In this document: positions 1-13,939 of the stretch, piece after piece
Position numbering within the stretch: the first letter of the stretch is position 1
Layout of the letters: every line of letters starts with the position of its first letter
Made by a program: the position numbers and the translations under genes
Notes under the pieces: generated by a model
Databases searched by the model: none
What the model was told of the DNA's origin: nothing
Seen by the model: only the letters and a program-made list of their open reading frames with translations
Assembly: GCF_015500095.1 (NCBI RefSeq)
Contig: NZ_CP062983.1
Location: forward strand, 1 to 64,000
Length of the DNA stretch: 64,000 bases
From: Phototrophicus methaneseepsis
Lineage (GTDB): Bacteria > Chloroflexota > Anaerolineae > Aggregatilineales > Phototrophicaceae
Direction: 5' to 3'

Positions 1-1401
1 GTGACGCCGCAAGATGCTTGGAACGCTGCATACCATCAATTGGAACTGCAATTGGACCGCGCCAGTTTTGATACCTGGCTGCGATCTGCTGTATTCCTGG
101 GCTATGAAGCTGGCATCTACCTGGTGGGTGTACCCAATGGGTATGCCCGCGATATGTTGCAGCATCGTCTTTACCGCAATATCCGCCGCGTCCTGAGCGA
201 TGTGGCTGGCGAAAATTGCGAACTCCGCTTTGAAATCTACAAAGGGGACGTCGGGGAACCAGAAGCGCCAGCAAGCGACGATATGCCGCTGTTTAAGTTC
301 ATGGCACAGCAGCCACCTGCCCCCGCGCCGGAACCCAAGTCGCTGCATCAGGCGGTAATTCCGCCGCAGCGCCCGGACCTACCGGAGAGTGAACTCAATG
401 CGCGTTATACGATAGACCGCTTCATCGTCAACCAGAGCAACAGCGTGGTTTACGAAGCAGCGCTCGCTGTCAGCGATTATCCGGCCACCGTTTATAACCC
501 CTTCCTGATTTATGGGGGTGTCGGCCTGGGTAAGACGCATTTGCTGCAATCTATCGCGCATCGCTGTGCAGAGCGGGGCCTGAAAACCGTCTATATCCCG
601 TCGGAGGTCTTTACCAATGACCTCATTGATGCCATCCGTAACCGTACAACCGCCATGTTCCGCGACAAGTACCGCACGGTCGATGTGCTGCTGGTCGATG
701 ATATTCAATTCATCGCCGGGAAGGAAACCACGCAGGAAGAGTTCTTCCATACATTTAATGCGCTGGTGAACTTCAATAAGCAGATCGTGCTGGCCTCAGA
801 CCGGCATCCGCGAGAGCTAGCAACGCTGGAAGATCGGCTGCGGTCGCGCTTCCAGGGTGGGCTGGTGGCTGATATTCAGCCGCCGGAATACGAGACACGA
901 ATCGCTATTTTGCAGATGTGGGCCCAGGAACGCGGCATGGAACTGTCTTCCAACGTTGTCGATATGATCGCCCACAAGGCACCTAATAACGTGCGCGAAC
1001 TGGAAGGTATCTTCAACCAGATTGCGGCCCAATCGCGCTTCAGCGGGGGCGCTGTCAACTTCAACAATGCCCGCGAAACTGTCGAGCGCTTCCGTCGCCC
1101 GCGTGAGCACGTCCAGTTGGATGACATCATCCAGATCACGGCAGATAAGCACGGCCTGACGATCGAAGAGCTAAAAGGCGCTCGCCGTACGGGCAAGATC
1201 AACCGTGCACGGCAAATCGCCATGTATATCGCCCGCGAGATGACCGAATACAGCCTGCCACAAATCGGCGAGGCGTTCGGAGGCCGCAGCCATACCACCG
1301 TGCTGCATGGCTGCAATAAGATCAACGATGAGCTGGAAAGTGACCCGATCTTAGGGAACCGCATCCAGAAGATCATGCATAGCATCCGGCGCGGCGGTTA
1401 A
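1..1401 (+). CDS. dnaA: Chromosomal replication initiator protein DnaA
   Basis: AAA+ ATPase that binds DnaA boxes at oriC and opens the origin. The 466-residue protein has the full domain order. Residues 1-80 form the helicase-loading domain I, followed by a short Pro-rich linker (about 100-128). The ATPase core carries Walker A GGVGLGKT (172-179) and Walker B LLVDDI (230-235). The C-terminal DNA-binding domain (about 370-466) carries the DnaA signature GGRSHTTVLHGCNK (427-440). The GTG start is the first base of the window, and its N-terminus (MTPQDAWNAAYHQLE) matches the usual start of the family, so the gene appears complete. The upstream region, where oriC could lie, is outside the window. 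A strong terminator follows. Confidence 0.97.
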   Translation: MTPQDAWNAAYHQLELQLDRASFDTWLRSAVFLGYEAGIYLVGVPNGYARDMLQHRLYRNIRRVLSDVAGENCELRFEIYKGDVGEPEAPASDDMPLFKFMAQQPPAPAPEPKSLHQAVIPPQRPDLPESELNARYTIDRFIVNQSNSVVYEAALAVSDYPATVYNPFLIYGGVGLGKTHLLQSIAHRCAERGLKTVYIPSEVFTNDLIDAIRNRTTAMFRDKYRTVDVLLVDDIQFIAGKETTQEEFFHTFNALVNFNKQIVLASDRHPRELATLEDRLRSRFQGGLVADIQPPEYETRIAILQMWAQERGMELSSNVVDMIAHKAPNNVRELEGIFNQIAAQSRFSGGAVNFNNARETVERFRRPREHVQLDDIIQITADKHGLTIEELKGARRTGKINRARQIAMYIAREMTEYSLPQIGEAFGGRSHTTVLHGCNKINDELESDPILGNRIQKIMHSIRRGG

Positions 1402-1426
1402 GCTGCCAACATAGGTAGAAGCGATC

Positions 1427-1458
1427 AAAAGGACACAGCCAATTCTGTGTCCTTTTTT
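1427..1458 (+). terminator. Intrinsic terminator after dnaA, probably bidirectional
   Basis: Perfect stem GGACACAG/CTGTGTCC with loop CCAATT, followed by six T on the plus strand. Four A precede it, which gives a T tract on the minus strand. It sits between the convergent dnaA and the reductase-like gene ending at 1478. Confidence 0.88.
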
Positions 1459-1477
1459 ATTTCTACCAATCATTGAT

Positions 1478-2092
1478 TTACACATCATAGCTAACGGCAT
1501 AAGAGGCCAGGATATTCCCTGAGCCTTGCCATGTGCGGGATTCTATCAGCTTGAGGAATACCCCCGGCTGACCGTCGAACAGCGGCGTTCCCCCACCTGC
1601 GATCATAGGGAAGATCGTCAGATGGAGTTCATCAATCAGCCCGTTTACGAGGAGATCATTCCAGAGAATACGGCCTGCGAAGATGAGGAGATCTTTGCCT
1701 GCTTGTTCTTTGAGCGCGGCAATAGCTTGATGTGCTTCCGCCTGCCTGACAATCCGCGTTTCATCCCAGGGGGCCAGGTCCTCATGGGCGATGCTATCCG
1801 AGATGACGACCTTGTTCATGGGCTGCATCAGGCGCGCGATCTCTTTACGAATTATGGTTGCATTGGGGTCATCGGGTAGCTTGGACCAGTAATCTTTAAA
1901 GCCTAAAAAAGAGGTGCGGCCACTGAATATAAGCGTATCCGCAGTTCGCAGGCGCTCCGCATTGAAGTGATCGAAGTTTTCATCGCCTGCATAATCTGGA
2001 TGATAATACGTAAATAAGGCCTCTAGATTTCTATCTTTGCCCTCATAATAACCATCTAATGACATCATATTGCTGACCACAACTTTACGCAT
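1478..2092 (-). CDS. Dihydrofolate reductase family protein (RibD C-terminal domain)
   Basis: A 204-residue single-domain protein of the RibD_C/DHFR-like fold, which in characterised members binds NADPH and reduces pterin- or pyrimidine-like substrates. The opening ([18 protein letters not shown]) is the family hallmark first strand with the MSLDG motif. Residues 130-170 ([21 protein letters not shown], then [16 protein letters not shown]) carry the conserved G-x-x-L-x-x-x-L-x-x-x-x-L-I-D-E and P-x-x-x-G-x-G-x-x-L-F patterns. No riboflavin genes adjoin it, so it is more likely one of the many stand-alone paralogues than the riboflavin enzyme RibD. It is convergent with dnaA. The substrate cannot be assigned from sequence. 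Confidence 0.85.
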
Positions 2093-2526
2093 CTTGCACC
2101 TCTTGTAGAAGTAAATAAGCGCTCAATAACAGCCATCTATTTATAAGCGTGACCCTATCATAGAACATGTGTTTCAAAAGTCAACAAGTCCATCTGTTTT
2201 CAGAGCGATTCTCAGCGCCATTCTGCGCGAATTTGGGACGAAAAGTGTCACATTCGAGGATATATCCTTCTGAGGATAGCACCACTGTTCGCCACTTTGT
2301 TTTCGCAGATAACGCAAATTTATACCCACTTTCTACCACTAACATGCCACCAAGCGGATTTTAAGCCATTTCAGGGCATTCGGACGCTATGGCAGCGCTC
2401 AAAAGTGTGCCCCAAAAACGTACCATATGGAAAACCATATGGTCGCCTATAAGGTCATCAATGGGTTTAGGCTGAAATCTGAAATCGTTTCAGAGGCGTC
2501 CTGATTGACGCAGAGGAGACTAACCC
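2093..2526. other. 434-bp intergenic region between divergent genes
   Basis: AT-rich spacer carrying the control regions of the reductase-like gene (leftward) and the portal-like gene (rightward). A 65-codon open frame on the plus strand (2167-2364) has no ribosome binding site or recognisable sequence and is not called. The only clear structure is the palindrome at 2422-2443. No clear DnaA-box cluster was seen by eye. Confidence 0.6.
2422..2443. repeat. Perfect 9-bp inverted repeat
   Basis: ACCATATGG, four A, CCATATGGT: a perfect hairpin or dyad 84 bp before the portal-protein start. Each arm is itself built around the palindrome CCATATGG. It lacks a T tract, so an operator or an RNA stem is more likely than a terminator. 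Confidence 0.6.
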
Positions 2527-4008
2527 ATGTTTAATTGGCTGAGCAGCCTTTTCACATCATCACAGAGTGGCCTACGCAGCGAGAGCCTACGCCAGGAGGC
2601 ACCGCACGTCCAGGCCGTCGCCATTCACAACAGCAGCCTGTTCAATGACTATATGCTCGCAGCTTCCCACAGCGAGATTTACCAGCAATCTCCGTGGGTC
2701 TATGTCGCTGTGAATCGGATCGCGGAGGCTGGGGCATTGGTACCGCTGCGTGTGATGCGGCTGCAGGGCGAGCGGCAAATCCAGGTAGAGCGCCACCCGT
2801 TGGAAGATTTGCTCGATGCCCCCAATCCATTTATGAGCCGCTTTGAGCTGCTGGAGCAAACCCTGGGCATGCTGGAGCTTACAGGCAATGCCTATTGGTT
2901 CCTTGTGGGCGATGCGACAGGCCAGCCAGCGCAAATCTGGCCGCTGCGCCCGGATCGCGTCAGCATTGTGCCGGACCCACAGGGCTATATTCGCGGCTAT
3001 GTCTACGAAGTCGATGGCAAGCGCATCCCCTATGAACCGCTGGAAATTGTGCATTTTAAGCGCTGGCACCCGGCCAATGATTACTATGGCCTTTCCGCTT
3101 TGAGTGCAGGGCATTTAGCTATCAGCAGCGACCGCGCCATGGCCCGATGGAATCACAACACCTTCGGCGAAGACAATGGTGTCCCGGCGGGTATCGTCTC
3201 GATTACCGATTTCGTCAGTGATGGCGATTTTGAGCGTATCAAACGAGAGTGGCGCAGCAGTTATGGCAGCGGCCAGCGTAAAACCGCATTTCTGCGCGGC
3301 GGGGCTGTGCAATGGCAGAATATCGGACTCAGCCACACCGACCTGGACTTCCTGAAGGGGCGGCAAGCCCATCGGGACGAAATCCTCAATATCTTCGGTA
3401 TCCCGGTCGGATTGGTGAGTGAAAATGCCACAGAAGCCAATGCCAAAGTCGCAGAAAGGCTCTTTATCGAGCGCACGTTGTGGCCCAAGCTTGTGCGTTT
3501 AGCCCAGAAGATCACCCAGGAGATGCTGCCTTTCTATCCGGGCGATCATATCGCGGCATTTGAGGACATCCGTCCCACCGATGTACAGGCCCGCCTGGAT
3601 GAAATTCGTACAGCTCAGGCCGTGCTCAGTATCAACGAAATTCGACAGCAGTACTATCACATGCCACCAGCGACGTGGGGTGATGTCCCCGTCGCGCTGG
3701 CAAAACAGAGCAATCTGGCGGCTGCACTCACAGATGCAGCACCGATAGCGCCGGAAGACGACAAGGAAGACGACGAAGCAGACAGCATCACCGGGACTAA
3801 AACCGCTGAAGAAGAATTGGCCCAATGGGAGCGATTCGCCTTGAATCGATTGGGACGCCCCCATACGCGCCCATTTGCGGTGCAGGTCCTGAGGGATGAA
3901 ATGGCCTTCGAGATCAGCGCCAGGTTACTCGCGGCAGAAGACAAAGATGCTGTAAAGGCCATCTTTAGCGAAGCTCAGGACCTGCTAGAAGCCGACAAAA
4001 CCGCTTAA
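2527..4008 (+). CDS. HK97-family phage portal protein, orphan
   Basis: Portal proteins form the dodecameric ring through which double-stranded DNA enters a tailed-phage capsid. This 493-residue protein has the family layout. The early WVYVAVNRIAEAGALVP segment (about 57-73) is the classic start of the conserved core. It is followed by LLDAPNPFMS (98-107), the ELTGNAYW segment (117-124), a long alpha/beta core and GIPVGLV (292-298) with NATEANAK (300-307), the typical portal sequence before the crown helices. The C-terminus is acidic and Lys-rich. AGGAG lies upstream of the ATG. No terminase, protease, capsid or tail gene flanks it: the neighbours are a reductase-like gene and a methyltransferase. 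It may be a prophage remnant, part of a gene-transfer-type particle whose other genes lie elsewhere, or a domesticated gene. Codon use looks like that of its neighbours. Confidence 0.9.
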   Translation: MFNWLSSLFTSSQSGLRSESLRQEAPHVQAVAIHNSSLFNDYMLAASHSEIYQQSPWVYVAVNRIAEAGALVPLRVMRLQGERQIQVERHPLEDLLDAPNPFMSRFELLEQTLGMLELTGNAYWFLVGDATGQPAQIWPLRPDRVSIVPDPQGYIRGYVYEVDGKRIPYEPLEIVHFKRWHPANDYYGLSALSAGHLAISSDRAMARWNHNTFGEDNGVPAGIVSITDFVSDGDFERIKREWRSSYGSGQRKTAFLRGGAVQWQNIGLSHTDLDFLKGRQAHRDEILNIFGIPVGLVSENATEANAKVAERLFIERTLWPKLVRLAQKITQEMLPFYPGDHIAAFEDIRPTDVQARLDEIRTAQAVLSINEIRQQYYHMPPATWGDVPVALAKQSNLAAALTDAAPIAPEDDKEDDEADSITGTKTAEEELAQWERFALNRLGRPHTRPFAVQVLRDEMAFEISARLLAAEDKDAVKAIFSEAQDLLEADKTA

Positions 4009-4022
4009 AGCAGCAGACTATA

Positions 4023-4064
4023 AAGCCAGCAGCCAATCGTTAAAATCGGCTGGCTAGCTGGCTT
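4023..4064. repeat. Inverted repeat downstream of portal gene
   Basis: AAGCCAGC-AGCC pairs with GGCT-A-GCTGGCTT (one bulged A) around an AT-rich loop. It could end transcription of the portal gene but lacks a clear T tract. Confidence 0.45.
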
Positions 4065-4140
4065 CTGGTCAACCTGCACGTTTACAGAAGGCAGGCTACA
4101 ATAACGTCATCAATAGCCGCATCATCATAAGGCGATATAG

Positions 4141-5319
4141 GTGTTCGCTCAGCTCGTAAAACCGCTTTTAAAAGATAGCCTGGAACCATCCCAGCAAGCC
4201 CTTCTGGATGAAATTGAACCGCTCATAGAGACCATTCACAACGAGTCGATTCAGGGCGATATTGTCTTCTATCAGCCGACGCTCCCCCATGCGCTGATAT
4301 TGAGTGCAGCTATCTTGCAGGCCCACGGAGACCATCACCGCCGCATTGCGCTATGGCAACCCCAATTCACGATCAGCACGTGTTTGACGTTATTCCAGAA
4401 ATACCAACTCGAACTTTCTAGGCTGGTCATCTACCAGGCGCCCGCTGTAGATGATACGCCAATCGCATTCCTGCACCTTTCCGCTGTACCCAAGCATTTA
4501 GCCACAATCACAGACGCCCTATCTCCAGGCGGCTACATCGTCTCTACACCACCAGAAGCCCACCCTCAGCTATCCCAGATAACCCGCCTGCAACAAACAG
4601 AGGGCCATATTTGGCGAGTACCTTATGATCCGCTGCAGGCGAAGGTTGCCCAGTATCGGGCCGAATATCGCCCACGATTGCAGCAGAGCTTACGTACATG
4701 GGCGCGCTATCATCAACGTGAACTCATCTTCCGTGATGTGCATTGGATGGGACAGCCTACGCTCAAAAACGTGATGGACTGCTGGATCTATCAGGAAGTC
4801 ATCTACGAAGTGCAGCCAGAAGTTATCGTCGAAATCGGGAGCTTTTCAGGCGGGAGCACGCTGTTCTTCGCCCATATGCTGGACCTGCTCGGCGCAGGTA
4901 AGGTGGTATCCGTCGATATCAACCGCCATGCCTATAACGTTTCTCATGATCGTATTATCGAGGTGACGGGCGATAGTACCACCCAGGAAGTCATGCAACA
5001 GGTCCGTCAGCACTGTGCTGGCAAACGCACGCTCGTCATCCATGATGGCGATCATCGGCACCACACTGTGTTGACAGACCTGAATCACTATGCGCCGCTT
5101 GTTACACCGGGTAGCTACCTCATCGTTGAAGATGGTATCGTAGACATCTACCCTTATGAAGAAACAGGGGCCGCTCTGGAACCCGATTTCCAGGATAAGG
5201 GGCCGTTATGGGCTGTCGCCACATTCATGGCTGAGAACCCACAATTTACGTATGATCGCACGCGAGAGCGTTACTGGCTGACCTATAACCCGTTCAGTTT
5301 CTTAAAGCGGCTGCCCTGA
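4141..5319 (+). CDS. CmcI/rhamnosyl O-methyltransferase-like protein with N-terminal extension
   Basis: A 392-residue protein whose C-terminal half (about 195-390) matches the CmcI-type class I methyltransferase family (cephalosporin hydroxylase/rhamnosyl O-methyltransferase). It has the SAM-binding glycine loop EIGSFSGGST (231-240), an acidic strand end SVDI (257-260), and the metal-binding style HDGDHRHH (301-308) with SYLIVEDG further on. Residues 1-165 are extra and resemble a decayed Rossmann methyltransferase half (DALSPGGYIVSTPPEA at 125-140), suggesting a duplicated-domain architecture. Start is GTG; no strong ribosome binding site is visible. Such enzymes usually methylate sugars of glycolipids or antibiotics; the substrate here is unknown and no biosynthetic cluster adjoins. 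Confidence 0.75.
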   Translation: MFAQLVKPLLKDSLEPSQQALLDEIEPLIETIHNESIQGDIVFYQPTLPHALILSAAILQAHGDHHRRIALWQPQFTISTCLTLFQKYQLELSRLVIYQAPAVDDTPIAFLHLSAVPKHLATITDALSPGGYIVSTPPEAHPQLSQITRLQQTEGHIWRVPYDPLQAKVAQYRAEYRPRLQQSLRTWARYHQRELIFRDVHWMGQPTLKNVMDCWIYQEVIYEVQPEVIVEIGSFSGGSTLFFAHMLDLLGAGKVVSVDINRHAYNVSHDRIIEVTGDSTTQEVMQQVRQHCAGKRTLVIHDGDHRHHTVLTDLNHYAPLVTPGSYLIVEDGIVDIYPYEETGAALEPDFQDKGPLWAVATFMAENPQFTYDRTRERYWLTYNPFSFLKRLP

Positions 5320-5373
5320 CGAGCCAGAAGCCTATGCCAGAATGCCTATGCGGCTATCCGATGTCTCTATCCT

Positions 5374-6180
5374 CTACCGGACCTGAAATTGATGAGTACG
5401 GATCGAGATGCCATCTGTCGTGACATGCACTACGTTAAAACCAGGCTGGGCTGTCGGGTCATGGGTGACCTCTGTATTTTCCGGCGTGGGGTAGCTCATA
5501 AACTGCGTCCAGGATGAGGCCGCAGACACATACAGCACACCATCTTTATAGTTCACTGTGTTCTGATGAATGTGGCCGTGCAGTACAGCGCGCAGACGCG
5601 GACCCGCTTGCATCAATAAGCCATGGACGGCCTCACCGTTATTGGTGCGCATCCAATCATCGAGCCAGGGCGCACCAACAGGCATCAGATTATGGTGAAC
5701 AGCCACCAACAGAGGGCGGGTATCCTCAGCGGAGACGATCTCCTCCAGCCAGAGCAACTGTTCATGAGGGATATTGCCTGTGGGGTCTTCCGCCGGGCCG
5801 TTGCTATCAAGTACCACAAGCTGCACGCCGTTGATCTCCATCTGGTAATACAGATAGGGCGTGACGACATCCTCAGTCCGGTTCAGCAAAATGCGCTGCA
5901 AGCCACCACAATCATCATGATTACCTGCCATGTAATACACCGGGGCCTTAAGCGGCTCAAAAGCGGCTTCTGCGGCGGAATAGGCCTCTGGATAAGGGTC
6001 GTACACCACATCCCCCGTATGCAGTATAAAATCCGGCTGGAACGGCAGCGCGTTCACAGCCTCAACCAGGGCCTTCGTCCCGGCAAGCGGCGTCGGCGCG
6101 CCATGTTTGATATAACTCGTATCGGGATTGATATGTGTATCGCTGATATGCACAAAGCGCAGCAGAGTAGTCATTCGCAA
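5374..6180 (-). CDS. Calcineurin-like metallophosphoesterase (CpdA/class III cyclic nucleotide phosphodiesterase type)
   Basis: A 268-residue protein with the complete dimetal phosphoesterase motif set in order: HISDTHINP, HTGDVVYD, MAGNHDD, AVHHNLMP and LHGHIHQN. These supply the two-metal centre that cleaves phosphomono- or diesters. The order and size match the CpdA-like family, which includes cAMP phosphodiesterases and phospholipid or other phosphodiesterases. No signal peptide is seen, so a cytoplasmic site is likely. The start could be either of two close Met codons (MRMTTLL); the first is used here. It is a single gene with the three-paralogue cluster further along the same strand. 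It is not SbcD, because the capping domain is absent. Confidence 0.87.
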   Translation of the reverse strand: MRMTTLLRFVHISDTHINPDTSYIKHGAPTPLAGTKALVEAVNALPFQPDFILHTGDVVYDPYPEAYSAAEAAFEPLKAPVYYMAGNHDDCGGLQRILLNRTEDVVTPYLYYQMEINGVQLVVLDSNGPAEDPTGNIPHEQLLWLEEIVSAEDTRPLLVAVHHNLMPVGAPWLDDWMRTNNGEAVHGLLMQAGPRLRAVLHGHIHQNTVNYKDGVLYVSAASSWTQFMSYPTPENTEVTHDPTAQPGFNVVHVTTDGISIRTHQFQVR

Positions 6181-6337
6181 ACCTCTTTTGACGGACCTTT
6201 TATCACATCACAGAACCAGCTTATAACTCTAGCGCAGCTATCCGCTACAGGCCATAACCGTCTCTGCGATTTAATGCGTTCTTACAGAATGTTCTTAGAG
6301 AAGAATCGCATAGGAGAGGCGCGCCAACCATGGCACG

Positions 6338-6748
6338 CTAGAGCTGTCCTAATTCTGGCACGTTCTCATTTGCTGCCTGCAACTGCTCGATAAGCGCTTC
6401 TGCTTCGTCATTGCTGCTAACGAGATAAAACGATTGATACAGGCCCATATTTATAAACCAGGATAAAATGGCCCTAACAAATTGACTGTTCACCACATTG
6501 ACCACTGCGAAAACATTCGGAGGCATTTTGCGGATAACATAGCGCAAGTGAGGGAAAGGATTACCCGGAGGCATAGCAACAGATCTTGGATCAAAGTAAG
6601 CGATCACAGGATGGTGAACTGTGCGTACAACTTGTATAGCGGCATCCATAGCCTGTCGATATTCTTGCCAATCTTTGACGCCTTCAGGCGTAAGGTAGAT
6701 GTGATAGATTGTTTTTTCTTCGTTATACCATTCGGAGATCATCACCAT
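6338..6748 (-). CDS. Small conserved protein, paralogue 1 of tandem family
   Basis: About 136 residues, not recognised as a named family. It shares a clear pattern with the next two genes: W-x-(N/D)-E-E-K-T near the start, W-Q-E-Y-x-x-A-x-D, H-P-V-I-x-x-F-D-P, P-P-G-N-P-x-P-H-L-R, N-x-x-F-V-x-x-x-x-x-W and G-L-Y-x-x-x-Y-x-V. The alternation of strands and helices (about 130 residues ending in an amphipathic helix EAEALIEQLQ) resembles a small alpha/beta sandwich such as STAS-like domains, but that is inference. The start was moved to the internal ATG at 6748 because homology to the sisters begins there; an upstream ATG at 6796 would add 16 unrelated residues. No catalytic motif or signal peptide is apparent. 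Confidence 0.7.
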   Translation of the reverse strand: MVMISEWYNEEKTIYHIYLTPEGVKDWQEYRQAMDAAIQVVRTVHHPVIAYFDPRSVAMPPGNPFPHLRYVIRKMPPNVFAVVNVVNSQFVRAILSWFINMGLYQSFYLVSSNDEAEALIEQLQAANENVPELGQL

Positions 6749-6868
6749 AAGAGCACAATCATTGATGCAATAAACAAAATGGCCTGCTAAAAACACTATT
6801 TTAAAACGCTATCTAAAGACACTATTTTGAATCGGTGGCCTAGGGCTGGGTAGCCACATCACGCACAC

Positions 6869-7279
6869 TTAATAGCCGTTTGCAATGCCATCGAGTTCTA
6901 TTGCATCGGCCTTAAGTTGGGCGATCAGTTCATCAGATTCTTTCTCTGTCGTCACGATGTAGAGCCATTGATATAGCCCCACTTTCTTGACCCATTCAAT
7001 GATCATGCTGATAAAGCGGTTGGTCGAGATTGTCACAATCGCGATGACGTGAGGGGGTTTTAAATTAATCGCTTTACGTAGATGTGGCAACGGATTGCCA
7101 GAAGGAATCGTAAAGCTGTATGGATCAAACAGAACAATCACAGGATGTTGGACTGTGTTAATCTCTCGCAGACCTTCTTCAATGGCATCCCAATATTCCT
7201 GCCAACTCGTTAGAGAAGTCGTGTAGTGAAAGAGGAAAACCGTTTTTTCTTCATCATGCCACTGCGGAATTAAAGCCAT
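6869..7279 (-). CDS. Small conserved protein, paralogue 2 of tandem family
   Basis: About 136 residues and homologous along its whole length to the genes on either side. It shares WHDEEKTVFLFHYT, the SWQEYWDAI segment, HPVIVLFDP, PSGNPLPHLR, RFISMIIEW and GLYQWLYIVTT. The start at 7279 (MALIPQW) aligns with its sisters, while a Met five codons upstream is possible. It lies 83 bp downstream of paralogue 3 and 120 bp upstream of paralogue 1 on the same strand, so a common transcript is plausible. Function unknown. Confidence 0.7.
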   Translation of the reverse strand: MALIPQWHDEEKTVFLFHYTTSLTSWQEYWDAIEEGLREINTVQHPVIVLFDPYSFTIPSGNPLPHLRKAINLKPPHVIAIVTISTNRFISMIIEWVKKVGLYQWLYIVTTEKESDELIAQLKADAIELDGIANGY

Positions 7280-7362
7280 AGGATTACCTAACAAAACAAC
7301 ATTCTCATTCTAGACTGGAAATACTTATTCTATAGTTGATCTTTCTATTATTTTGAATCTAA

Positions 7363-7755
7363 CTACAGCTGTTTTTCTCGTTCGGACATGAGTTCTATGA
7401 TGACTTCCTGGGCCTGTTCGCGCGTCTCAACGACGTATATCCAATGATAAAAGCCAATGCGCTTTAGCCAATTCATCATGGTGGCGGCAAAATGATTGTT
7501 CACGATGGCAACGGCAGCAATAACATGATCTGGCCTGGATTGGACCGCATAGCGTAAATGTGGCAGAGGATTACCCGCTGGCATGGCAATATCTTCAGGA
7601 TCAAAGATCATAATGACATCGTGATCCACCTGATTCATCATCTCCATGCCGTCGTCGATGGCACTCCGATATGACTGCCAATCACGCACGGGGTAAGTAA
7701 AATGAAACAGAAAGATGTGCTTTTCAGCATCATACCAGCCAGGAGTTATGGGCAT
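7363..7755 (-). CDS. Small conserved protein, paralogue 3 of tandem family
   Basis: A 130-residue protein and the promoter-proximal member of the three-gene array. It keeps the family pattern: WYDAEKHIFLFHFT, WQSYRSAIDDG, HDVIMIFDPEDIAMPAGNP, LPHLRYAV, VIAAVAIVNNHF and GFYHWIYVVET. The start at 7755 gives MPITPGWYDAEK, which aligns at once with the other copies. The FDP and GN(P)-PHLR blocks are the most conserved parts and probably mark the functional surface. No membrane segment is seen. Function not recognised. Confidence 0.72.
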   Translation of the reverse strand: MPITPGWYDAEKHIFLFHFTYPVRDWQSYRSAIDDGMEMMNQVDHDVIMIFDPEDIAMPAGNPLPHLRYAVQSRPDHVIAAVAIVNNHFAATMMNWLKRIGFYHWIYVVETREQAQEVIIELMSEREKQL

Positions 7756-7935
7756 ATAAGCCAGCCTATTACATTAGAGTGATTCTATTGTAGCTGAAAA
7801 AATAAACAGGATGTAGAAATAAGATAAGGATTCGTTTATAGATACGAGTATAACGAACCTTTACAGGGCGGCAATATCCCATTCTTAAATGGAGTAGAAT
7901 CCAATAGTAAGCAAAAGAGAAGTAAGTTATAGAAG

Positions 7936-7959
7936 TAAAAAGACCAGCTTTCGCTGGCC
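7936..7959 (-). terminator. Intrinsic terminator after lytic transglycosylase gene
   Basis: Read on the minus strand: GGCCAGC, GAAA tetraloop, GCTGGTC, then five T. It lies 34 bp beyond the stop codon at 7993. Confidence 0.9.
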
Positions 7960-7992
7960 TCTCCTGTATTCAGCATGATGAATGGTGCAAGG

Positions 7993-8619
7993 TTAGTTGA
8001 TGTTCAGTTCAGCAGCGGCCATGTTGCATAGGGTGCTGCCACCTGCATTCATCCATTGGTCTAAGGTGGGGCTATCTGCTAACTGATGATACGCATCATT
8101 GTAGATGCCCGCACCCCACAGATAGTATCGCTGTGTTTCCGCGGGCCAGTTGCCAAAGTCCTTGCGTGTAACGCTTGGGCCACCATTATAACAGGCCATG
8201 ATCATTCCCACGTTATCGCCTGCCCAATTGTGGCATTCGTTTAAGAAGTTCGCGCTGCGCATGGCGTTGGTATCCGGGTCCAGCATATCTTCCGTGGCGG
8301 AAAAGTGAAACGGCATCACCTGGAACAGGCCCTGCGCGCCAGCATGGCTGGCAATGGTCGGATGCCCGCAGCTTTCGATCTGCATGACGGTTGCGAGCAA
8401 GTTAGGGTCCAGGTTATATGTTTTACCCCAGGTAACGAGGTCATCTTCCCAATAGCGCACAGATGGCGCAAAGAAGCCAGCAATATCCCCCTGGGGTTTG
8501 AGTTGTCCCATCCAGCCATTCAAGCTCTGCAAGACTGCCGGGACAATCGTCGGCAGCAGTAACAGCGCAAGGATGACCAATGGCACATTGCGTGTGAGCA
8601 ATCTGCGAAGTCTTTGCAT
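7993..8619 (-). CDS. Membrane-anchored lytic transglycosylase (SLT domain)
   Basis: A 208-residue protein that cleaves the MurNAc-GlcNAc bond of peptidoglycan. An N-terminal basic stretch (RLRRLLTR) precedes a hydrophobic anchor (about 12-33), giving an extracytoplasmic catalytic domain. The SLT motif begins at LDPNLLATVMQIESCG, with the catalytic Glu in QIES. It is followed by the usual AQGLFQVMP block and the substrate-groove motif ACYNGGPS. The C-terminal Cys and the Cys after the catalytic Glu (ESCGHP) could form disulfides. A single gene, closed by a strong terminator. The palindrome cluster at 8701-8729 lies about 80 bp before its start. Confidence 0.88.
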   Translation of the reverse strand: MQRLRRLLTRNVPLVILALLLLPTIVPAVLQSLNGWMGQLKPQGDIAGFFAPSVRYWEDDLVTWGKTYNLDPNLLATVMQIESCGHPTIASHAGAQGLFQVMPFHFSATEDMLDPDTNAMRSANFLNECHNWAGDNVGMIMACYNGGPSVTRKDFGNWPAETQRYYLWGAGIYNDAYHQLADSPTLDQWMNAGGSTLCNMAAAELNIN

Positions 8620-8946
8620 GATTTGTCGTTTGAACCTATCTATCAGTTAACTTTACGACGAATTAGGTCTGAGGTTGCTTAAGACCGGGGATGTTCAGAT
8701 ATGTTCTAATTTTAGAACATAAGTTCTAAAAAGTCAAGTCAGAAATCCGTTTGAAATGGTATGCCATAATAACCTGATGCATGGAAAAAGCTATCCGTAA
8801 AGCGAGCTTTATGACTAGTTTTGTGGCAAGCTTGATGGCAACTGTATAGCAAGCTTTTAAGTAGCCCTCATCATCGATTGACCTGCTGATTAATTCGTCA
8901 TGTTAGGCTAACTTCAGCAGCAAACCAGCAAGCAGGAGAGCGCCCC
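8620..8946. other. 327-bp divergent intergenic region
   Basis: Spacer between the transglycosylase (leftward) and the fourth paralogue (rightward). It holds the overlapping palindromes at 8701-8729; nothing else recognisable. CAGGAG precedes the ATG at 8947. Confidence 0.6.
8701..8729. promoter_or_regulatory. Overlapping palindromes resembling a GAAC-N4-GTTC SOS box
   Basis: Three alternating half-sites make two overlapping dyads: ATGTTCTAA-TT-TTAGAACAT (8701-8720) and TTAGAAC-ATAA-GTTCTAA (8712-8729). The second contains GAAC-N4-GTTC, the core of LexA boxes known from Gram-positive bacteria. A LexA-type repressor site for the transglycosylase or the divergent gene is an inference. Confidence 0.5.
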
Positions 8947-9366
8947 ATGGCGATTGATCTATATTGGGATGATGATGCCCAAACCGTCATTTTAGCAGAA
9001 TTCCAGCCGGGATGGACCTGGGATGATCTGCACCGCGTGCTGGAAGCGATCAAGCGTATGAGCGCAGACCGTGAGCGTGTGTTTGGGGCTATCATCGACG
9101 TGCGCAAAGGCTTGCAAATCCCTGGGGGCAGCATCTTCAACCAGGAGACACTTTCGCAGTTCAAACGCATCACGCGCCTGGGTTCCGATGGCAAAGGCCC
9201 TGCCGTCATCGTCGGCATGAATGGCGTCCTTCAGCGTGTGATGGATGCGATTAAGATGGTCGACAGTCATGTGATGCAGGATGTCTATTTTGCGCCAGAT
9301 ATGGCACAGGCACGAGATGTCATTTACGCTCGTATGCAAAACTACGCTACACAAATAAACGTATAA
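8947..9366 (+). CDS. Small conserved protein, distant fourth member of the tandem family
   Basis: A 139-residue protein whose layout follows the three minus-strand paralogues, but more diverged. It has YWDDDAQTVIL at the start, W-x-W-D-D-L-x-x-V-L-E-A-I, then I-I-D-V-R-K-G-x-x-I-P-G-G-S in the place of F-D-P...P-x-G-N-P. A segment of predicted strand-helix follows (AVIVGMNGVLQRVMDAI), then a final helix AQARDVIYARM. CAGGAG lies before the ATG. It is separated from the others by the transglycosylase gene and faces the opposite way, so it may be an older duplication. Function unknown; relation to the array is by pattern only. Confidence 0.65.
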   Translation: MAIDLYWDDDAQTVILAEFQPGWTWDDLHRVLEAIKRMSADRERVFGAIIDVRKGLQIPGGSIFNQETLSQFKRITRLGSDGKGPAVIVGMNGVLQRVMDAIKMVDSHVMQDVYFAPDMAQARDVIYARMQNYATQINV

Positions 9367-9452
9367 ATATCATCGTACAAACATGATGAGGCCTTCGTCT
9401 CGTTAGAAACATCAAACGAGGCATCCCAAAATAAGGCATCTAGAAAAGAGGT

Positions 9453-9653
9453 ATGATGAATAAAAGCGATAGCTACATGACAGAAGGCATCGCAATTGGC
9501 GCGGCACTTGGGCTCATCTTTGGAACGTTGCTCTTCGCGGACAATATGGCGCTAGGAATCCCCTTTGGGCTGGCGATAGGAATGGCAATTGGGTCTGCCA
9601 TCAAAAAAGATAAGATCAAAAACAATGCGCCGTCCGACGACGATACGCTCTAA
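9453..9653 (+). CDS. Small glycine-zipper membrane protein
   Basis: A 66-residue protein with two hydrophobic segments (about 11-28 and 31-50) rich in G-x-x-x-G and A-x-x-x-G spacing (GIAIGAALGLIFG and GIPFGLAIGMAIGSAI), the pattern of tightly packed glycine-zipper helices. A charged tail follows (KKDKIKN...DDD). A good ribosome binding site (AGAGG) stands just before the ATG. It follows the 8947 gene by 86 bp and is closed by a terminator, so the two may share a transcript. No function assigned. Confidence 0.7.
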   Translation: MMNKSDSYMTEGIAIGAALGLIFGTLLFADNMALGIPFGLAIGMAIGSAIKKDKIKNNAPSDDDTL

Positions 9654-9707
9654 ATTAGTAAATTGCCTCACGATATACCACAAAAGTTATCAATCCATTG
9701 ATGAACG

Positions 9708-9735
9708 GCCCTGTTTGCCTTAAACGGGGCTTTTT
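9708..9735 (+). terminator. Intrinsic terminator after glycine-zipper gene
   Basis: GCCCTGTTT, loop GCCTT, AAACGGGGC (one G-T pair), then five T. Confidence 0.88.
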
Positions 9736-9843
9736 CGCTTGCGCCATACGATGAGATGCGTCATGCTAACAAGCGCTCGTGTCACCGTTATCTGGCGCCA
9801 TCATTATTTGATTCATTCACTTGCGAAATTGCCTGTTTGCCTG

Positions 9844-11724
9844 ATGAAGAACCCGCTCGCTAAACAATATGTGTCGCTCTTAATCGGACTTTATTTCATG
9901 GTCGCCTGTACGCCCGTATCAGAGCCACTCCCGACACTAGCGATCCTGCCGACCGAGGCAGCCTCTATCAGCATCTCAGTTAAGCCCCTGCCCGCCTGGG
10001 AAATTTTTAGCAGTTCATTGAGTGCCGGACAGATTGAGCACTGGCAGTTCACCGCCACAGCGGGCGACGCGATCCGCGTGCGGGTGGTTCCCGTCGGTAG
10101 CGTCACGCTTAGCCTGATGAATGCCAATGGCGATGTGCTGAGTACAGGTGATGAAGTCGCCCTTACGGTACCAGCAGACGATACTTATACAGTCGAAGTT
10201 CAGCCGAGTCGCAGCGAACTGACAAATTATGACATCGGACTAGCCTATACAGACCGTCCCAACCCGAATTTGCCCACCGCCCTACCAGAAGTCGTCGGGG
10301 TGCCCACGCCAACACCCGCCGATAACGATCTGGGTAGCTATCAGGGCGAGCTGCTGCCCCAGGCACCGATTAATGCGGAACTCAATGGCGAGACGCCTCA
10401 CATTTATACCCTGCGTGCCACAGAAGGCGACATCATGAGCATTGTGCTCAACGCCCCAGGGGACCCTATTCTGCGCCTGTTCGACCCGGCGGCACAACTC
10501 ATCGCCATGGATGACAACAGCGGCACAGGTAATGCCGCGCACATCCGCAACGTGCAGTTCGCACAGGGTGGCGTCTACAGTGTACAAGTCTCATTGCGAG
10601 AGGCCGGTCCCTATGAACTAGCCCTGATCCCAGGCGAACAAGCGCTCATTGCGGATTCCATCGTCACGCCCACACGTATGGTGCCGACACCTTATCTGAC
10701 GCCAACAGCAGGCCCCGTTCCCGCCGGGGAACGCTTACAAGACCATCTCCCAGCATTAGGCGAGCTAGAGAGCGCGTCGGATTTCAGCCGATATTCGTTT
10801 TATGCGCTGGCGGGGGAAGTCGTCACAATTGGATTGGCCCCTGCTGAAGATAGCTCGCTGCGGCCATCGCTGGAAGTCTTTGGCCCGGATGGGAGCCTGG
10901 TCGCCAATGCCACAGCACGGACGAGCGATGCTGTGGGTAAAGCGCTGGTGCGTAACCTCGTCATCCCAGAAGAAGGCGCTTATTTGCTGATTGTCACGGG
11001 GGAAGATGGCTCTTTCGGCGCTTATAGCATCGGCTATGGATACGGCCAGAGCTATCGTGAACATTATGCGGGGCAACCAGAACCTGACGTGCTGCTCAAC
11101 GATGAGATTGCAACGCATGGCACACGCAACGCGTATCAACTCACCCTGCGCGCCGGGGATGCGATCTCAGTGGCGGTGAACCCGGTGACGAACACCCTGC
11201 TGGACCCGGTAGTAGAAATTGCGGATAGCGACGGTCATGTGCTGTATCAGGATGATAACGGCGGGAGCAACCGAGCGGCACTACTCCGCTTCGCCCAGAT
11301 TAACGCTGATGGTACGTACTGGCTGCGCGTCTACGATGCCACCTCAGCACAGATTGGTAGCTATACGCTGCGGTGGCGCATTGTGGAATCCCAGGCGACA
11401 CCGACCGCCGTTCCTATGGCCTCTACGATTATGTCTATCCGTGATAGCGTCTCACAAGGCGAATACGGCTTTTACAGCTTTTATGGGCGTGCGGGCCAGC
11501 AAGTCCAAATCCGGGTGACAGCCACTAATGCAGCGACCTTCGACCCGGTGGCTGTGCTGCTCGACCCAAATGGGCAAGAAATTGCCGAGGGAGACGACAG
11601 CGACAGCTCAATGAATCCGCTTTTCTTCGCCACGTTGCCCGCAGATGGTACCTATACCGTGCGCGTCAACGGGTATCTCTCCGGTGGTGACTTCGAACTG
11701 AATGTGTCGCTCATTTTGCCCTAG
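9844..11724 (+). CDS. Lipoprotein with several PPC-type beta-sandwich domains
   Basis: A 626-residue exported lipoprotein. The start at 9844 gives a basic N-region, a hydrophobic stretch and a lipobox ending FMVAC (Cys22), so upstream in-frame Met codons were not used. A short Thr/Pro stalk is followed by about five repeats of the bacterial pre-peptidase C-terminal (PPC) fold. Each begins near a pattern such as H-W-x-F-x-A-x-A-G-D-x-I, continues through D-P-x-L-x-L-x-D-x-x-G and ends with A-D-G-T-Y-x-V-x-V. T-P-x-P linkers (near VPTPTPAD and VPTPYLTPTA) separate them. No peptidase domain is present, so it is probably a surface binding or structural protein. It stands alone between a terminator and the toxin-antitoxin pair. 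Confidence 0.82.
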   Translation: MKNPLAKQYVSLLIGLYFMVACTPVSEPLPTLAILPTEAASISISVKPLPAWEIFSSSLSAGQIEHWQFTATAGDAIRVRVVPVGSVTLSLMNANGDVLSTGDEVALTVPADDTYTVEVQPSRSELTNYDIGLAYTDRPNPNLPTALPEVVGVPTPTPADNDLGSYQGELLPQAPINAELNGETPHIYTLRATEGDIMSIVLNAPGDPILRLFDPAAQLIAMDDNSGTGNAAHIRNVQFAQGGVYSVQVSLREAGPYELALIPGEQALIADSIVTPTRMVPTPYLTPTAGPVPAGERLQDHLPALGELESASDFSRYSFYALAGEVVTIGLAPAEDSSLRPSLEVFGPDGSLVANATARTSDAVGKALVRNLVIPEEGAYLLIVTGEDGSFGAYSIGYGYGQSYREHYAGQPEPDVLLNDEIATHGTRNAYQLTLRAGDAISVAVNPVTNTLLDPVVEIADSDGHVLYQDDNGGSNRAALLRFAQINADGTYWLRVYDATSAQIGSYTLRWRIVESQATPTAVPMASTIMSIRDSVSQGEYGFYSFYGRAGQQVQIRVTATNAATFDPVAVLLDPNGQEIAEGDDSDSSMNPLFFATLPADGTYTVRVNGYLSGGDFELNVSLILP

Positions 11725-11760
11725 CAGTTGCCTTCGCGCCCGGCCCTCTGTTCGTGCAGG

Positions 11761-12147
11761 CTACCACTGACGATTGATGTCGTACTGGTCAAACACAGCA
11801 TCTTTGCTGACGATGCTGTAACCTTCGTGTATGGCCTGCGCGATAATAATTCGGTCAAATGGATCTCGATGATAAAAAGGTAATGTAGCGACGATACCAG
11901 TATGATCGGTCTTGATGTGTAACAAGCCGATACTGTTTTCGATAAGTTGATTTTCTATGAAATCGCTGAAAGGTGAGGGCATTTCCAGCTTATTGAGGCT
12001 GACTTTAATCGCCATCTCCCATACGCTAGCGATACTGAGATAGATAGCGTTATCTGATTGCTGGATAATCTCTTTAGCCGCCGAACTCAAAGAAACATGG
12101 TCGTTGATAAACCACAAAAAAGTATGTGTATCAATTATATAGCTCAT
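11761..12147 (-). CDS. PIN-domain toxin (VapC-like RNase)
   Basis: A 128-residue PIN domain, a Mg-dependent ribonuclease fold used as the toxin of type II modules. The acidic residues are in place: IDTHTFLWF (first Asp), SVWEMAIK (Glu), DPFDRIIIAQAI (two Asp around the FDR motif) and a final SKDAVFDQYD acidic cluster. The DTH-x-x-x-W start and DPFDR block are typical of the subgroup paired with Phd/DUF2281-type antitoxins. Its ATG overlaps the antitoxin stop by 4 bases (ATGA), the usual coupling. The toxin probably cuts a specific RNA; the target is unknown. Confidence 0.9.
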   Translation of the reverse strand: MSYIIDTHTFLWFINDHVSLSSAAKEIIQQSDNAIYLSIASVWEMAIKVSLNKLEMPSPFSDFIENQLIENSIGLLHIKTDHTGIVATLPFYHRDPFDRIIIAQAIHEGYSIVSKDAVFDQYDINRQW

Positions 12148-12371
12148 TTTGTGTAGCTATCAAAGTCATCTAAAGGCGCATCAAAATCCGGAGCCAGGCG
12201 GATTTTGCCACGTGCGCTACCAGGTTGACGCTGCTTCTTAGCTGTCGCCAGTGGAACAAGCTGCACCGCACGCTGTTGATCGTCCAGAATAACAATTAGC
12301 TTGCCATCCTGAGCCTCGTCGATCAGCTTGCCAAGTTGGTCTTGTGCCTCTCGTAAAGAATAGCGTTCCAT
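12144..12371 (-). CDS. Antitoxin of the PIN toxin (Phd/YefM or DUF2281 type)
   Basis: A 75-residue partner placed immediately upstream of the PIN toxin. The N-terminal half (MERYSLREAQDQLGKLIDEA) is the Phd-like DNA-binding dimer pattern. The C-terminal tail (GSARGKIRLAPDFDAPLDDF) is the family's toxin-binding segment, in which Asp/Phe residues insert into the toxin active site. A GAGG ribosome binding site lies 8 bases before the ATG. A possible -10 (TATAAT on the minus strand, 12412-12417) and the dyad at 12426-12447 lie upstream and could be the autoregulated promoter. Confidence 0.88.
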   Translation of the reverse strand: MERYSLREAQDQLGKLIDEAQDGKLIVILDDQQRAVQLVPLATAKKQRQPGSARGKIRLAPDFDAPLDDFDSYTK

Positions 12372-12425
12372 ATAGGGCCTCGTCTATAAGATTCGCTTGC
12401 TCATTCACCTTATTATATAGCGCAA

Positions 12426-12447
12426 AGGGCACGCCATAGCGTGCCCT
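12426..12447. repeat. Perfect 9-bp inverted repeat before the toxin-antitoxin pair
   Basis: AGGGCACGC, loop CATA, GCGTGCCCT. On the minus strand it is followed by TTT. It could be a terminator for the epimerase-like gene or an operator for the antitoxin; the T tract is short. Confidence 0.6.
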
Positions 12448-12522
12448 ACATTATAATTGAAGCAAGAGACACCCTGAAGCAGCCAAAGATACTAAAGGGC
12501 CCAGAGATACGGTTTTCAGTCG

Positions 12523-13557
12523 CTAAAATACCATCTTCGCCAGTTTCAGGATACCCTGGCTCCAGGGGACGCGGTGGCTGACGCCAGACTGATTTTCAAA
12601 GCTGGCTAAGTTATCCAGGTACCACTGATAATTACGGATCATAGCATCTTTGTTACTGTACTTAGGCTGCCAATCGAGCGCTTGCTGGGCTTTTTCGATG
12701 CTCACAAAGCTCTCTTTGTTGGCCGTCTCATAAACCCACTTATACAGCGGCGAGATGCCCAGCGCTTCTAAGAAGCGCAGCGTCCAGATGGCCGGCTCTG
12801 CGGGTAAGCCAATCATCTTCTTACCAAAGCCAGCGTAATCCAGCACAGCCTGATAATCTTCTCGGAAGGTGGTGTATTCTGCCGCGCCGATGTTGAAGGT
12901 ATCGTTCACGCGGTCTGCATCCAGCGTGGCACACAGATAAATCGCGTCGCACAGGTCTTCAACATCAAGGAGTTGATACGGGTTATTGCCGCCGCCCAAC
13001 ATCGGGAAGTTATGGCCGTCTTTAGCCCAATCGTAGAAGAGCGCGAACACGCCTAAGCGCTCCGGCCCAACAAAGGACTTGGGGCGAATGATGGGGACGC
13101 ACATGCGATCCCGATACGATGCGCAAATATTCTCCGCCTCAATCTTGCAGATGCCATAAGGGCCAACGCCATCAAGCTTATCATTTTCATAAAGGGGATG
13201 GTGATCCGGGATGCCATAGACCGCTGTGCTGCTGATATGGACGAAGCGCTGAACGCCATGTTCGAAGGCGGAATCAATGACATTGCGTGTGCCATCAATA
13301 TCTGTGCTATAAATATCTTCCGGCTTATAAAGCGGGAGCGCCGCCGCTGTGTGGATGACGACATCAACGCCTTCCATAGCGCGATCTACCGCAGCGCGGT
13401 CACGAATATCGCCAACAATTTCTGTAATCTGCTCTTTTTCAGGATAATCGAAGGGCGCAATATCCAGCGAGACAACATCGTGCTCGCGTTCGAGCAAGTA
13501 GCGCACCATATTGATGCCCAGGAAGCCCGCGCCGCCCGTAATTAAATAGCGTGCCAT
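12523..13557 (-). CDS. NAD-dependent epimerase/dehydratase (extended SDR)
   Basis: A 344-residue extended short-chain dehydrogenase. It has the NAD-binding Rossmann motif GGAGFLG (8-14) following MARYLIT, an acidic residue closing the second strand (VVSLDIAPFD), the HTAAALP cofactor motif, ISSTAVYG (catalytic Ser region) and the Y-x-x-x-K pair in YGICK. Length and motif order match nucleotide-sugar or 3-beta-hydroxysteroid-type epimerase/dehydratase enzymes. No sugar-pathway genes adjoin, so the substrate is open. The last 100 residues include the W-x-P-K-Y-S motif near the substrate-domain end. Start is well placed, the motif lying at residue 8. Confidence 0.88.
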   Translation of the reverse strand: MARYLITGGAGFLGINMVRYLLEREHDVVSLDIAPFDYPEKEQITEIVGDIRDRAAVDRAMEGVDVVIHTAAALPLYKPEDIYSTDIDGTRNVIDSAFEHGVQRFVHISSTAVYGIPDHHPLYENDKLDGVGPYGICKIEAENICASYRDRMCVPIIRPKSFVGPERLGVFALFYDWAKDGHNFPMLGGGNNPYQLLDVEDLCDAIYLCATLDADRVNDTFNIGAAEYTTFREDYQAVLDYAGFGKKMIGLPAEPAIWTLRFLEALGISPLYKWVYETANKESFVSIEKAQQALDWQPKYSNKDAMIRNYQWYLDNLASFENQSGVSHRVPWSQGILKLAKMVF

Positions 13558-13742
13558 AGTCTTTGTGACTCCTTACCGTGTGCAAGCCATAGTGATGACT
13601 ATTTTCAGTGATGACTGTTTCAATGACAGTGTTCGTAACTGCTCTAGAGCGTCACTATGTTTTTCATGCTCTCATAACCGTGTGATACAAATCACACTAT
13701 ACAATGCTAGCGGAAGTCACACGCTTAAGGAATAGTGGCGTT
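13558..13742. other. Gene-free spacer before the BtuF-like remnant
   Basis: Together with the remnant at 13743-13903 it forms a stretch of about 380 bases without an intact gene. The spacer has only short AT-rich repeats near the epimerase promoter. Confidence 0.5.
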
Positions 13743-13903
13743 CTACTGACTGAAGGCAGTAATAACAGGCCGTTGGGCCAAGCTGACGAGATAATCGTAC
13801 TCATGAGAAGCCCAACCAGAGCGCAACCCATACCCAGCGCACAGACAATTTTCGTACTATTAGGCAATAAAGAGACGAGCCGAGGGGGTATAGGCGATTT
13901 CAT
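13743..13903 (-). pseudogene. Remnant of BtuF-like ABC transporter substrate-binding protein
   Basis: The minus strand reads PPRLVSLLPNSTKIVCALG then MGCALVG, matching the start of BtuF-type cobalamin/metal-chelate binding proteins. After VG the frame shifts, and the next frame continues with the family hallmark SHEYDY (seen from GAGTACGATTAT), then LVSLAQRPVITAFSQ before a stop (TAG at 13743-13745). The rest of the roughly 300-residue protein is missing. A single-base indel plus truncation explains this. No permease or ATPase gene adjoins. Identification rests on these two motifs in adjacent frames. Confidence 0.62.
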
Positions 13904-13939
13904 CGGCTTTGGCGTTCTCAAAATGGGTCAATCATTGGG

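Follow-up and report, generated by a model that had tools for sequence, protein, structure and literature searches.

What does an intact phage portal gene do when it stands by itself beside dnaA? The gene in question lies within the first 64,000 nucleotides of the chromosome of Phototrophicus methaneseepsis (contig NZ_CP062983.1; this whole stretch is called the window below), and a preliminary description offered three explanations for it: a domesticated DNA-channel protein, part of a dispersed gene transfer agent (GTA)-like particle, or a very recent prophage leftover. The features of the window that bear on this question are as follows.

2419..2442, plus strand: operator-like tandem element CGTACCATATGGAAAACCATATGG, built as CGTACCATATGG-AAAA-CCATATGG, upstream of the portal gene
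2514..2518, plus strand: portal ribosome binding site AGGAG, by direct reading of the sequence
2527..4008, plus strand: HK97-type portal gene, assigned to the dispersed particle set; 493 aa, ATG start, intact open reading frame (ORF)
2695..3648, plus strand: conserved portal domain, residues 57-374, with the identical span in the genome-wide PF04860 search
7993..8619, minus strand: SLT-domain lytic transglycosylase, tentative release-lysin candidate (PF01464, 4.1e-18; PHROG endolysin, 4.1e-15)
8714..8727, plus strand: tentative LexA-box-like palindrome AGAACATAAGTTCT; the 677,308 bases scanned in this genome contain two AGAACNNNNGTTCT sites, of which this is one

The reading of the 493-residue ORF as an intact HK97-type portal was confirmed by PF04860 Phage_portal (E 2.9e-59; 201 bits, cut-off 39; residues 57-374), by TIGR01537 portal_HK97 (122 bits, cut-off 112) and by PHROG portal families (best 1e-62), and the good ribosome binding site claimed for it is the AGGAG listed above. 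Its closest solved structure was the portal of RcGTA, Rcc01684 (E 3.3e-33); by profile the RcGTA portal was matched at E 1.6e-52 and the next structure entry, 8cez, at 4.8e-26. The portal does begin close to dnaA, 1.1 kb behind that gene (window 1-1401), with one RibD/DHFR-like ORF, judged from sequence, between the two, and its G+C content (0.55-0.57) is similar to that of dnaA (0.54-0.56). Among 106 portal loci of relatives scanned with the DnaA of this genome, only L032 and L172, two loci of the same-genus genome G001, had DnaA beside the portal. The proximity to dnaA is incidental, an accident of the genus. Further along the window, on the minus strand at 6338-7755, three similar small tandem ORFs (152, 141 and 130 aa) have ...GNP(L/F)PHLR in common, in a stretch of low G+C (0.42-0.46).

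The claim that the portal is alone held for its surroundings and failed for the chromosome. Visual inspection of the ORFs in window 1-14,000 showed no further virion genes, and host-type genes flank the portal on both sides; a contiguous virion module of the kind that marks a resident prophage is absent around it. The portal ORF was also the sole PF04860 match on the 5,631,885-bp chromosome (one contig), with no second portal of this family found in a prophage. However, a genome-wide search for terminase, HK97 capsid and protease located partners at 244 to 1,350 kb, including a large terminase subunit (TerL) at 244 kb and a protease-capsid fusion at 1,350 kb. The partner genes on the chromosome are:

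244,088-244,702 (PF03237 match), plus strand: TerL, a 420-aa ORF
about 845,958-846,509, minus strand: tail fiber (PHROG tail fiber, 1.2e-26)
1,307,583-1,309,010, minus strand: hub-like protein, by homology to prophage hub genes
1,312,890-1,313,477, minus strand: head-tail adaptor, a relative of the adaptor of G025 (L064)
1,349,713-1,350,447, minus strand: capsid (PF05065 over cut-off)

The loci thus lie near 2.5, 244, 846, 1,307-1,313 and 1,350 kb of a single 5.63-Mb contig. All of the genes are open, and the set is single copy except for prophage-borne homologues of TerL, hub and fiber. In the TerL ORF both Terminase_6N and Terminase_6C scored over cut-off, and solved TerL ATPase and nuclease domains were matched; a second, weaker PF03237 match of this genome falls in the 4.83-Mb prophage. 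An interim reading that the set has no terminase came from PF03354, which matched only one of 61 genomes (G004); it was rejected because PF03237 finds TerL in 44 of the 61. An ORF overlapping the TerL start is TerS-like, as suggested by its position, its HTH and weak family matches. In the capsid ORF, Peptidase_S78 (PF04586) stands at the edge of its cut-off (21.0 and 18.0 bits versus 21), and His78, Ser131 and Glu153, which we take to be the catalytic residues of the prohead protease, are invariant in 21 sequences. The adaptor was first recognized in G025 (PHROG 442, 1.2e-8). The hub-like assignment derives from homology to the gene that immediately follows the tape measure in two prophages of this genome; its three further copies here all lie in prophages, and a fold model of it (pLDDT 44) was not used. 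A 153-aa tail terminator overlaps the hub start. For the model of its L253 homologue (pLDDT 79), lambda gpU was the nearest match (Z 12.0, 124 aligned, rmsd 3.0), with the RcGTA terminator at Z 9.9. The fiber, with two further copies in prophages, is followed by a 142-aa ORF and then by a 105-aa holin-like ORF with two hydrophobic segments, judged by eye. Family searches gave no match of note for these two ORFs (PF09636 versus the 142-aa ORF, E 0.04, below cut-off), and relatives of the holin-like protein adjoin fiber or hub in five other genomes. PADLOC returned no match for the 4 proteins submitted to it.

Such dispersal appears to be derived. We found that 6 of 8 genomes of families f3 and f4 have TerL immediately before the portal, and that capsid, adaptor and hub follow one another within a few kb in 7 of these 8. 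Capsid, adaptor, terminator, hub and fiber occupy 5.4 kb in G011; in the divergent G044 (family f2), portal, capsid, adaptor, terminator, hub and fiber form one block, with TerL elsewhere; and the IMG/VR contig L253 holds TerL, portal, capsid, adaptor, terminator, hub and fiber in 10.5 kb, with host-type genes around or inside the block by eye (a TnpB-like piece and a nucleotidyltransferase/HEPN-like pair). These compact blocks in relatives reveal the ancestral order TerL-portal-protease/capsid-adaptor-terminator-hub-fiber and suggest that a compact cluster probably broke up, its pieces in this genome now being up to 1.35 Mb apart. Portal neighborhoods are little conserved between genera, and the comparison of portal position in relatives gave a divided answer: the portal stands alone in most of 20 neighborhoods of 20 kb, but in f3 and f4 it usually has TerL beside it. 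In one f5 genome (L160, G040:C235), the portal adjoins a 540-aa TerL without a BLAST match to the usual TerL, an apparent terminase replacement in that family.

The same blocks bear on the tail. Between terminator and hub, no tube or tape measure was found in this genome, L134, L050 or L253, nor in the compact blocks of G011 and G044. Seven of 61 genomes have matches to the tape-measure family PF10145, and those of the present genome are confined to its prophages at 3.536 and 4.845 Mb. However, PF10145 misses a tape-measure-like 808-aa gene before the hub in another prophage of this genome (L130); a tube, or a tape measure from a different family, may therefore be encoded elsewhere.

The chromosome (G000:C1) contains three contiguous prophages, at 1.197-1.217 (L130), 3.529-3.549 (L129) and 4.838-4.858 Mb (L128). 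They resemble the scattered set in a homologous hub and partly in the fiber, whereas they differ from it in being contiguous, in possessing tape-measure-like genes and in lacking a PF04860 portal. Two proteins with a DnaA-like N-terminal part are encoded at 1215570-1215959 and 4861191-4861532 of G000:C1, one of them (465 aa) inside the L130 prophage and the other near the L128 prophage; over roughly their first 105-126 residues they share 57-65% identity with the N-terminal portion of host DnaA, and they could be DnaA decoys or helicase loaders. In another genome, the L079 prophage (G009:C7) encodes a protease-capsid with piecewise identity of 54-60% to its domesticated counterpart, beside the TerL of the prophage itself and a more distant portal. 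Exchange between prophages of this type and the scattered set is possible.

In our survey of 61 genomes, this one included, six components were searched. The protein search found the portal in 42 genomes and 29 of 41 genera, mostly at one locus each, along with capsid in 44, adaptor in 45, TerL in 44, hub in 51 and fiber in 47, several of these counts including prophage genes. Portal and capsid occurred together in 41 genomes and were both missing from 16; one genome had the portal only (G024), and three had a capsid without a portal match (G005, G047 and G056). A scan of public genomes with the portal yielded 99 relatives. Of the 80 kept, 78 carry Chloroflexi/Chloroflexota, Anaerolineae-type, Aggregatilineales or Ardenticatenia titles, and the remaining two (L234 and L238) are probably mistitled. 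In a class-wide sample, 54 of 396 genomes had portal matches at E<=1e-10, the strongest in the order of the host and the others weaker and scattered. Portal dN/dS was 0.05-0.27 in 12 same-genus pairs, several of them near synonymous saturation, which indicates purifying selection. Some copies are interrupted: inner stops were seen in the portal matches of G016 and G027 (protein search) and of G003, G016 and G030 (alignment model), and the capsid of the same-genus G001 has an open piece of only 303 aa. Either errors in metagenome-assembled genomes or decay would explain these. G022, of the same family (8.0 Mb, 98% complete), had no portal, capsid or adaptor match.

The single portal sequence had no match among viral contigs, and a portal alignment reached 37 loci; the terminator alignment found no relative there, and the hub of L253 matched only itself. 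Known phage records gave 1,073 portal matches, all below 60% identity; the 15 matches listed reached at most 34% identity over 65-76% of the portal. Ten capsid matches listed were at most 27% identical over about half of the protein. These are too distant for a recent phage source of portal or capsid, which was rejected.

Evidence for vertical inheritance came from trees and from distance comparisons. Trees of portal, TerL and capsid omitted G037 and G021 throughout, G001 for capsid and G016 for portal; the capsid tree was a quick tree, and genus pairs were judged by eye in all three. Of the same-genus sets that could be judged, 7 of 9 formed groups in the portal tree, all 8 in the TerL tree (one weakly) and 6 of 7 in the capsid tree. 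The portal exceptions were G006/G026 and the placement of G036 apart from G012/G029. Against genus labels, the portal tree joins G006 with G031 (98/88), whereas the TerL tree joins G006 with G026 and G031 with G014. Families f3 and f4 had high support in all three trees, and deep branches were mostly unresolved. Pairwise distances were also compared with those of DnaA in the 40 genomes with a fetched DnaA, minus G044, G037, G040, the G001 capsid and the G016 portal. The correlation r was 0.85 for portal (n = 29), 0.74 for TerL (23), 0.86 for capsid (24), 0.71 for adaptor (24), 0.87 for terminator (17) and 0.90 for hub (25), and none of 999 permutations reached any of these values; within family f1 alone, r was 0.60-0.80. 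TerL was loosest by rank (rho 0.49 with DnaA, 0.28-0.50 with the other genes). The component table was built from fetched loci, not from all 61 genomes. With regard to DnaA itself, no convincing orthologue was found in G017 and G033 (genus g17; 93-94% complete; best E 3e-8 and 6e-5) or in G018 (74% complete); the remaining genomes had a full or partial match. Since the portal is present in 42 of 61 genomes, tracks DnaA in its divergence and is under purifying selection, it is not a very recent prophage leftover.

Upstream regions suggested that the scattered genes may be regulated in common. Two motifs were noticed after inspecting these regions, and scans for them covered 677,308 bases of this genome. 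The tandem element upstream of the portal has an exact 20-base core (tandem CCATATGG) that recurs upstream of the fiber; one half, ACGTACCATATGGAACG, precedes the capsid, and a degenerate pair with 5 mismatches precedes TerS-TerL. Chance gives 1-3 such degenerate pairs in 277 kb; this one was counted in view of the corresponding position in G001, which bears a site with a single mismatch. The G001 copies of the element stand upstream of portal (1 mismatch), TerL (1) and fiber (2), and in G006 portal and fiber have in common a different, 35-base version; it was not seen in most other genomes examined. At <=3 mismatches, 557,504 other bases of this genome contained no site, and its fetched loci contained two extra ones: L289:6174 falls inside a gene, and L063:9700 precedes an M23/SH3/glycosyl-hydrolase gene that may encode a lysin. 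The latter gene (L063:9851-11764; M23 peptidase, SH3 and glycosyl hydrolase) has a triple CCANNNGG repeat about 150 bp upstream and is possibly a lysis gene of the particle regulon.

The second motif is a LexA-box-like palindrome, with AGAAC-N4-GT(T/G)CT sites enriched at TerL, capsid and portal. With up to 1 mismatch allowed, 660-bp start regions contained AGAACANNNGTGCT in 14 of 25 genomes for TerL, 18 of 30 for capsid and 1 of 33 for portal, compared with 64 of 3000 random 660-bp windows; no such site was found in the start regions of adaptor (0/28), terminator (0/21) or hub (0/25; 0/74 together). Nineteen of 20 distinct exact AGAACANNNGTGCT sites in 89 loci precede TerS-TerL or capsid; these loci were fetched for particle genes, which the random-window control allows for. 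The other 117 fetched loci had 17 exact sites: 3 repeat known ones, 5 are new and precede TerL or capsid (L239, two in L242, L249 and L252), 8 lie elsewhere (L215, L259, and three each in L271 and L274) and one (L251) is ambiguous. For portals of public genomes, AGAACNNNNGTKCT (<=1 mismatch) lay within 300 bp in 11 of 78 cases versus 67 of 3000. The viral contigs L271 and L274 each carry three exact AGAACACCTGTGCT copies on the minus strand at 126-bp spacing. In the window, the palindrome at 8714..8727 is our guess for a member of the particle set; the start of the lytic transglycosylase lies 94 bp from it, and this enzyme is a tentative candidate for the particle lysin. The LexA box of Dehalococcoides resembles AGAAC-N4-GTTCT. 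A passage of PMC3323433 gives the Gram-positive LexA box as GAAC-N4-GTTC, and the likeness in form makes damage-type (LexA) control of the predicted sites a fair guess. Our literature search turned up no publication about a LexA box of Chloroflexota, nor is one named in the relevant passages of PMC3323433.

How does this set compare with known GTAs? Four of the six GTA attributes given in the pertinent part of PMC9662315 were recognized here from genes alone; the other two, packing of largely random host DNA and its delivery to other cells, would be properties of the particle. The particle proteins are tailed-phage-derived by profile or fold (TerL, portal, protease-capsid, adaptor, terminator and fiber), and their genes are endogenized in the host chromosome at multiple loci. 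With portal and capsid 1.35 Mb apart, which to our knowledge exceeds any known tailed-phage head, the set is not packageable as a unit. Its inheritance is mostly vertical, with co-diversification with the host (r 0.71-0.90). RcGTA has TerL, portal, protease, capsid, adaptor, terminator and hub, as does the present set, and it is controlled by CtrA; GafA is another of its regulators. RcGTA and its family Rhodogtaviriformidae are likewise tailed-phage-derived, scattered over several loci (five, according to a passage of PMC9662315) and vertically inherited. In contrast, the present set belongs to another phylum, fuses protease to capsid, keeps TerL, portal and capsid each apart, has no tube or tape measure found with it and has LexA-box-like promoters. 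Its capsid is only distantly like that of RcGTA (E 3.9e-4), and we do not claim common descent since phage records match the portal about equally distantly. BhGTA/VSH-1 of Brachyspira (Brachygtaviriformidae) is described in part of PMC9662315 as an independent GTA with a "genome" that is probably spread over multiple loci. It is likened to the present set by that description only; both are dispersed, and the host phylum differs. PBSX is damage-induced and encoded in one gene block with a full contractile tail, in which the order is fiber-XkdW-holin. The order of fiber, 142-aa ORF and 105-aa holin-like ORF resembles this, whereas the single block and the contractile tail do not. A passage of PMC12946183 lists PBSX of Bacillus subtilis as a GTA-like element that packages 13.4-kb chromosomal fragments. 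Among the open-licence PMC titles and abstract openings listed, none concerned a GTA of Chloroflexota or Anaerolineae; passages with the term in some of these papers were general or reference-list mentions, and "Chloroflex" is absent from the passages on GTAs in PMC9662315 and PMC12946183.

We consider it likely that the portal belongs to a particle domesticated from a tailed phage, most probably a GTA, encoded at no fewer than five scattered loci and vertically inherited in this Chloroflexota order. The proposal of a dispersed GTA-like particle is supported by the partner genes at other loci, by their co-occurrence and by the operator-like motifs common to several of them; packaging and transfer of DNA by the particle are what we infer. 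An unlikely alternative, although one with several observations in its favor, is a domesticated particle without useful DNA transfer, which would serve damage-induced killing or competition like PBSX, whose particles pack host DNA and kill relatives, or would be a non-delivering shell. Damage induction would fit the LexA-box-like sites found at promoters of TerL, capsid and some portals, the apparent want of a tube or tape measure could impair delivery, and in most same-genus comparisons divergence is more rapid in hub and adaptor than in the capsid. However, DNA is probably packed because TerL keeps both its ATPase and nuclease domains, the neck of adaptor, terminator, hub and fiber suggests docking to a cell, and PBSX itself has a full contractile tail.

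That the genes are unrelated remnants of several old prophages, surviving at separate loci, seems very improbable. Remnants would decay, whereas this set recurs in dozens of genomes, with an identical ancestral order in compact loci, DnaA-like divergence, purifying selection and common upstream motifs; what speaks for remnants is that the prophages of this genome hold homologous hub and fiber genes, that portal neighborhoods are poorly conserved between genera, and that interrupted copies exist (G001, G003, G016, G027 and G030). Less credible still is recruitment of the portal alone by the host as a channel for DNA, in uptake or conjugation for instance, with the other genes irrelevant. The solitary position of the portal in the window and in most relatives would fit such a channel, but partner genes have been kept along with the portal, as its pairing with capsid and, in f3 and f4, its adjacency to TerL indicate, and the portal has a promoter element in common with capsid and fiber.

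For the domesticated particle, a working scheme can be proposed. One regulator, LexA or a LexA-like repressor, would activate the scattered loci jointly, possibly in response to DNA damage. The capsid would assemble on the portal and be matured by the protease, and TerL would fill it with host DNA; the particle genes could not travel as a unit because they lie up to 1.35 Mb apart. The adaptor-terminator-hub-fiber neck, beside which no tube or tape measure was found, would recognize a recipient, and the holin-like protein with a lysin would release the particles. A fuller version of this scheme is tentative, and we rate its odds somewhat below even, slightly reduced by the failure of PF10145 to detect the tape-measure-like gene of L130: an ancient dispersed GTA with shared operators (tandem CCANATGG and LexA-box-like) that has lost tube and tape measure, so that a neck of portal, adaptor and terminator is capped by hub and fiber in a minimal-tail, damage-induced delivery particle. 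Because of its host phylum, scatter, protease-capsid fusion and apparent lack of tube and tape measure, we regard the scattered set as a GTA-like viriform candidate and as a new variant.

According to a passage of PMC12946183, GTAs arose several times and few systems have been studied in detail; a vertically kept, widespread set in Chloroflexota would, if true, be a further case. Some Chloroflexota lineages are proposed, in a passage of PMC8941918, to have gained phototrophy by horizontal transfer. The same source describes P. methaneseepsis ZRK33 (CP051151) as a cultured deep-sea Chloroflexota isolate, and a cultured strain makes packaging, induction and transfer directly testable. A particle with neck and hub but neither tube nor tape measure would, if true, also show how small a tail suffices for DNA delivery.
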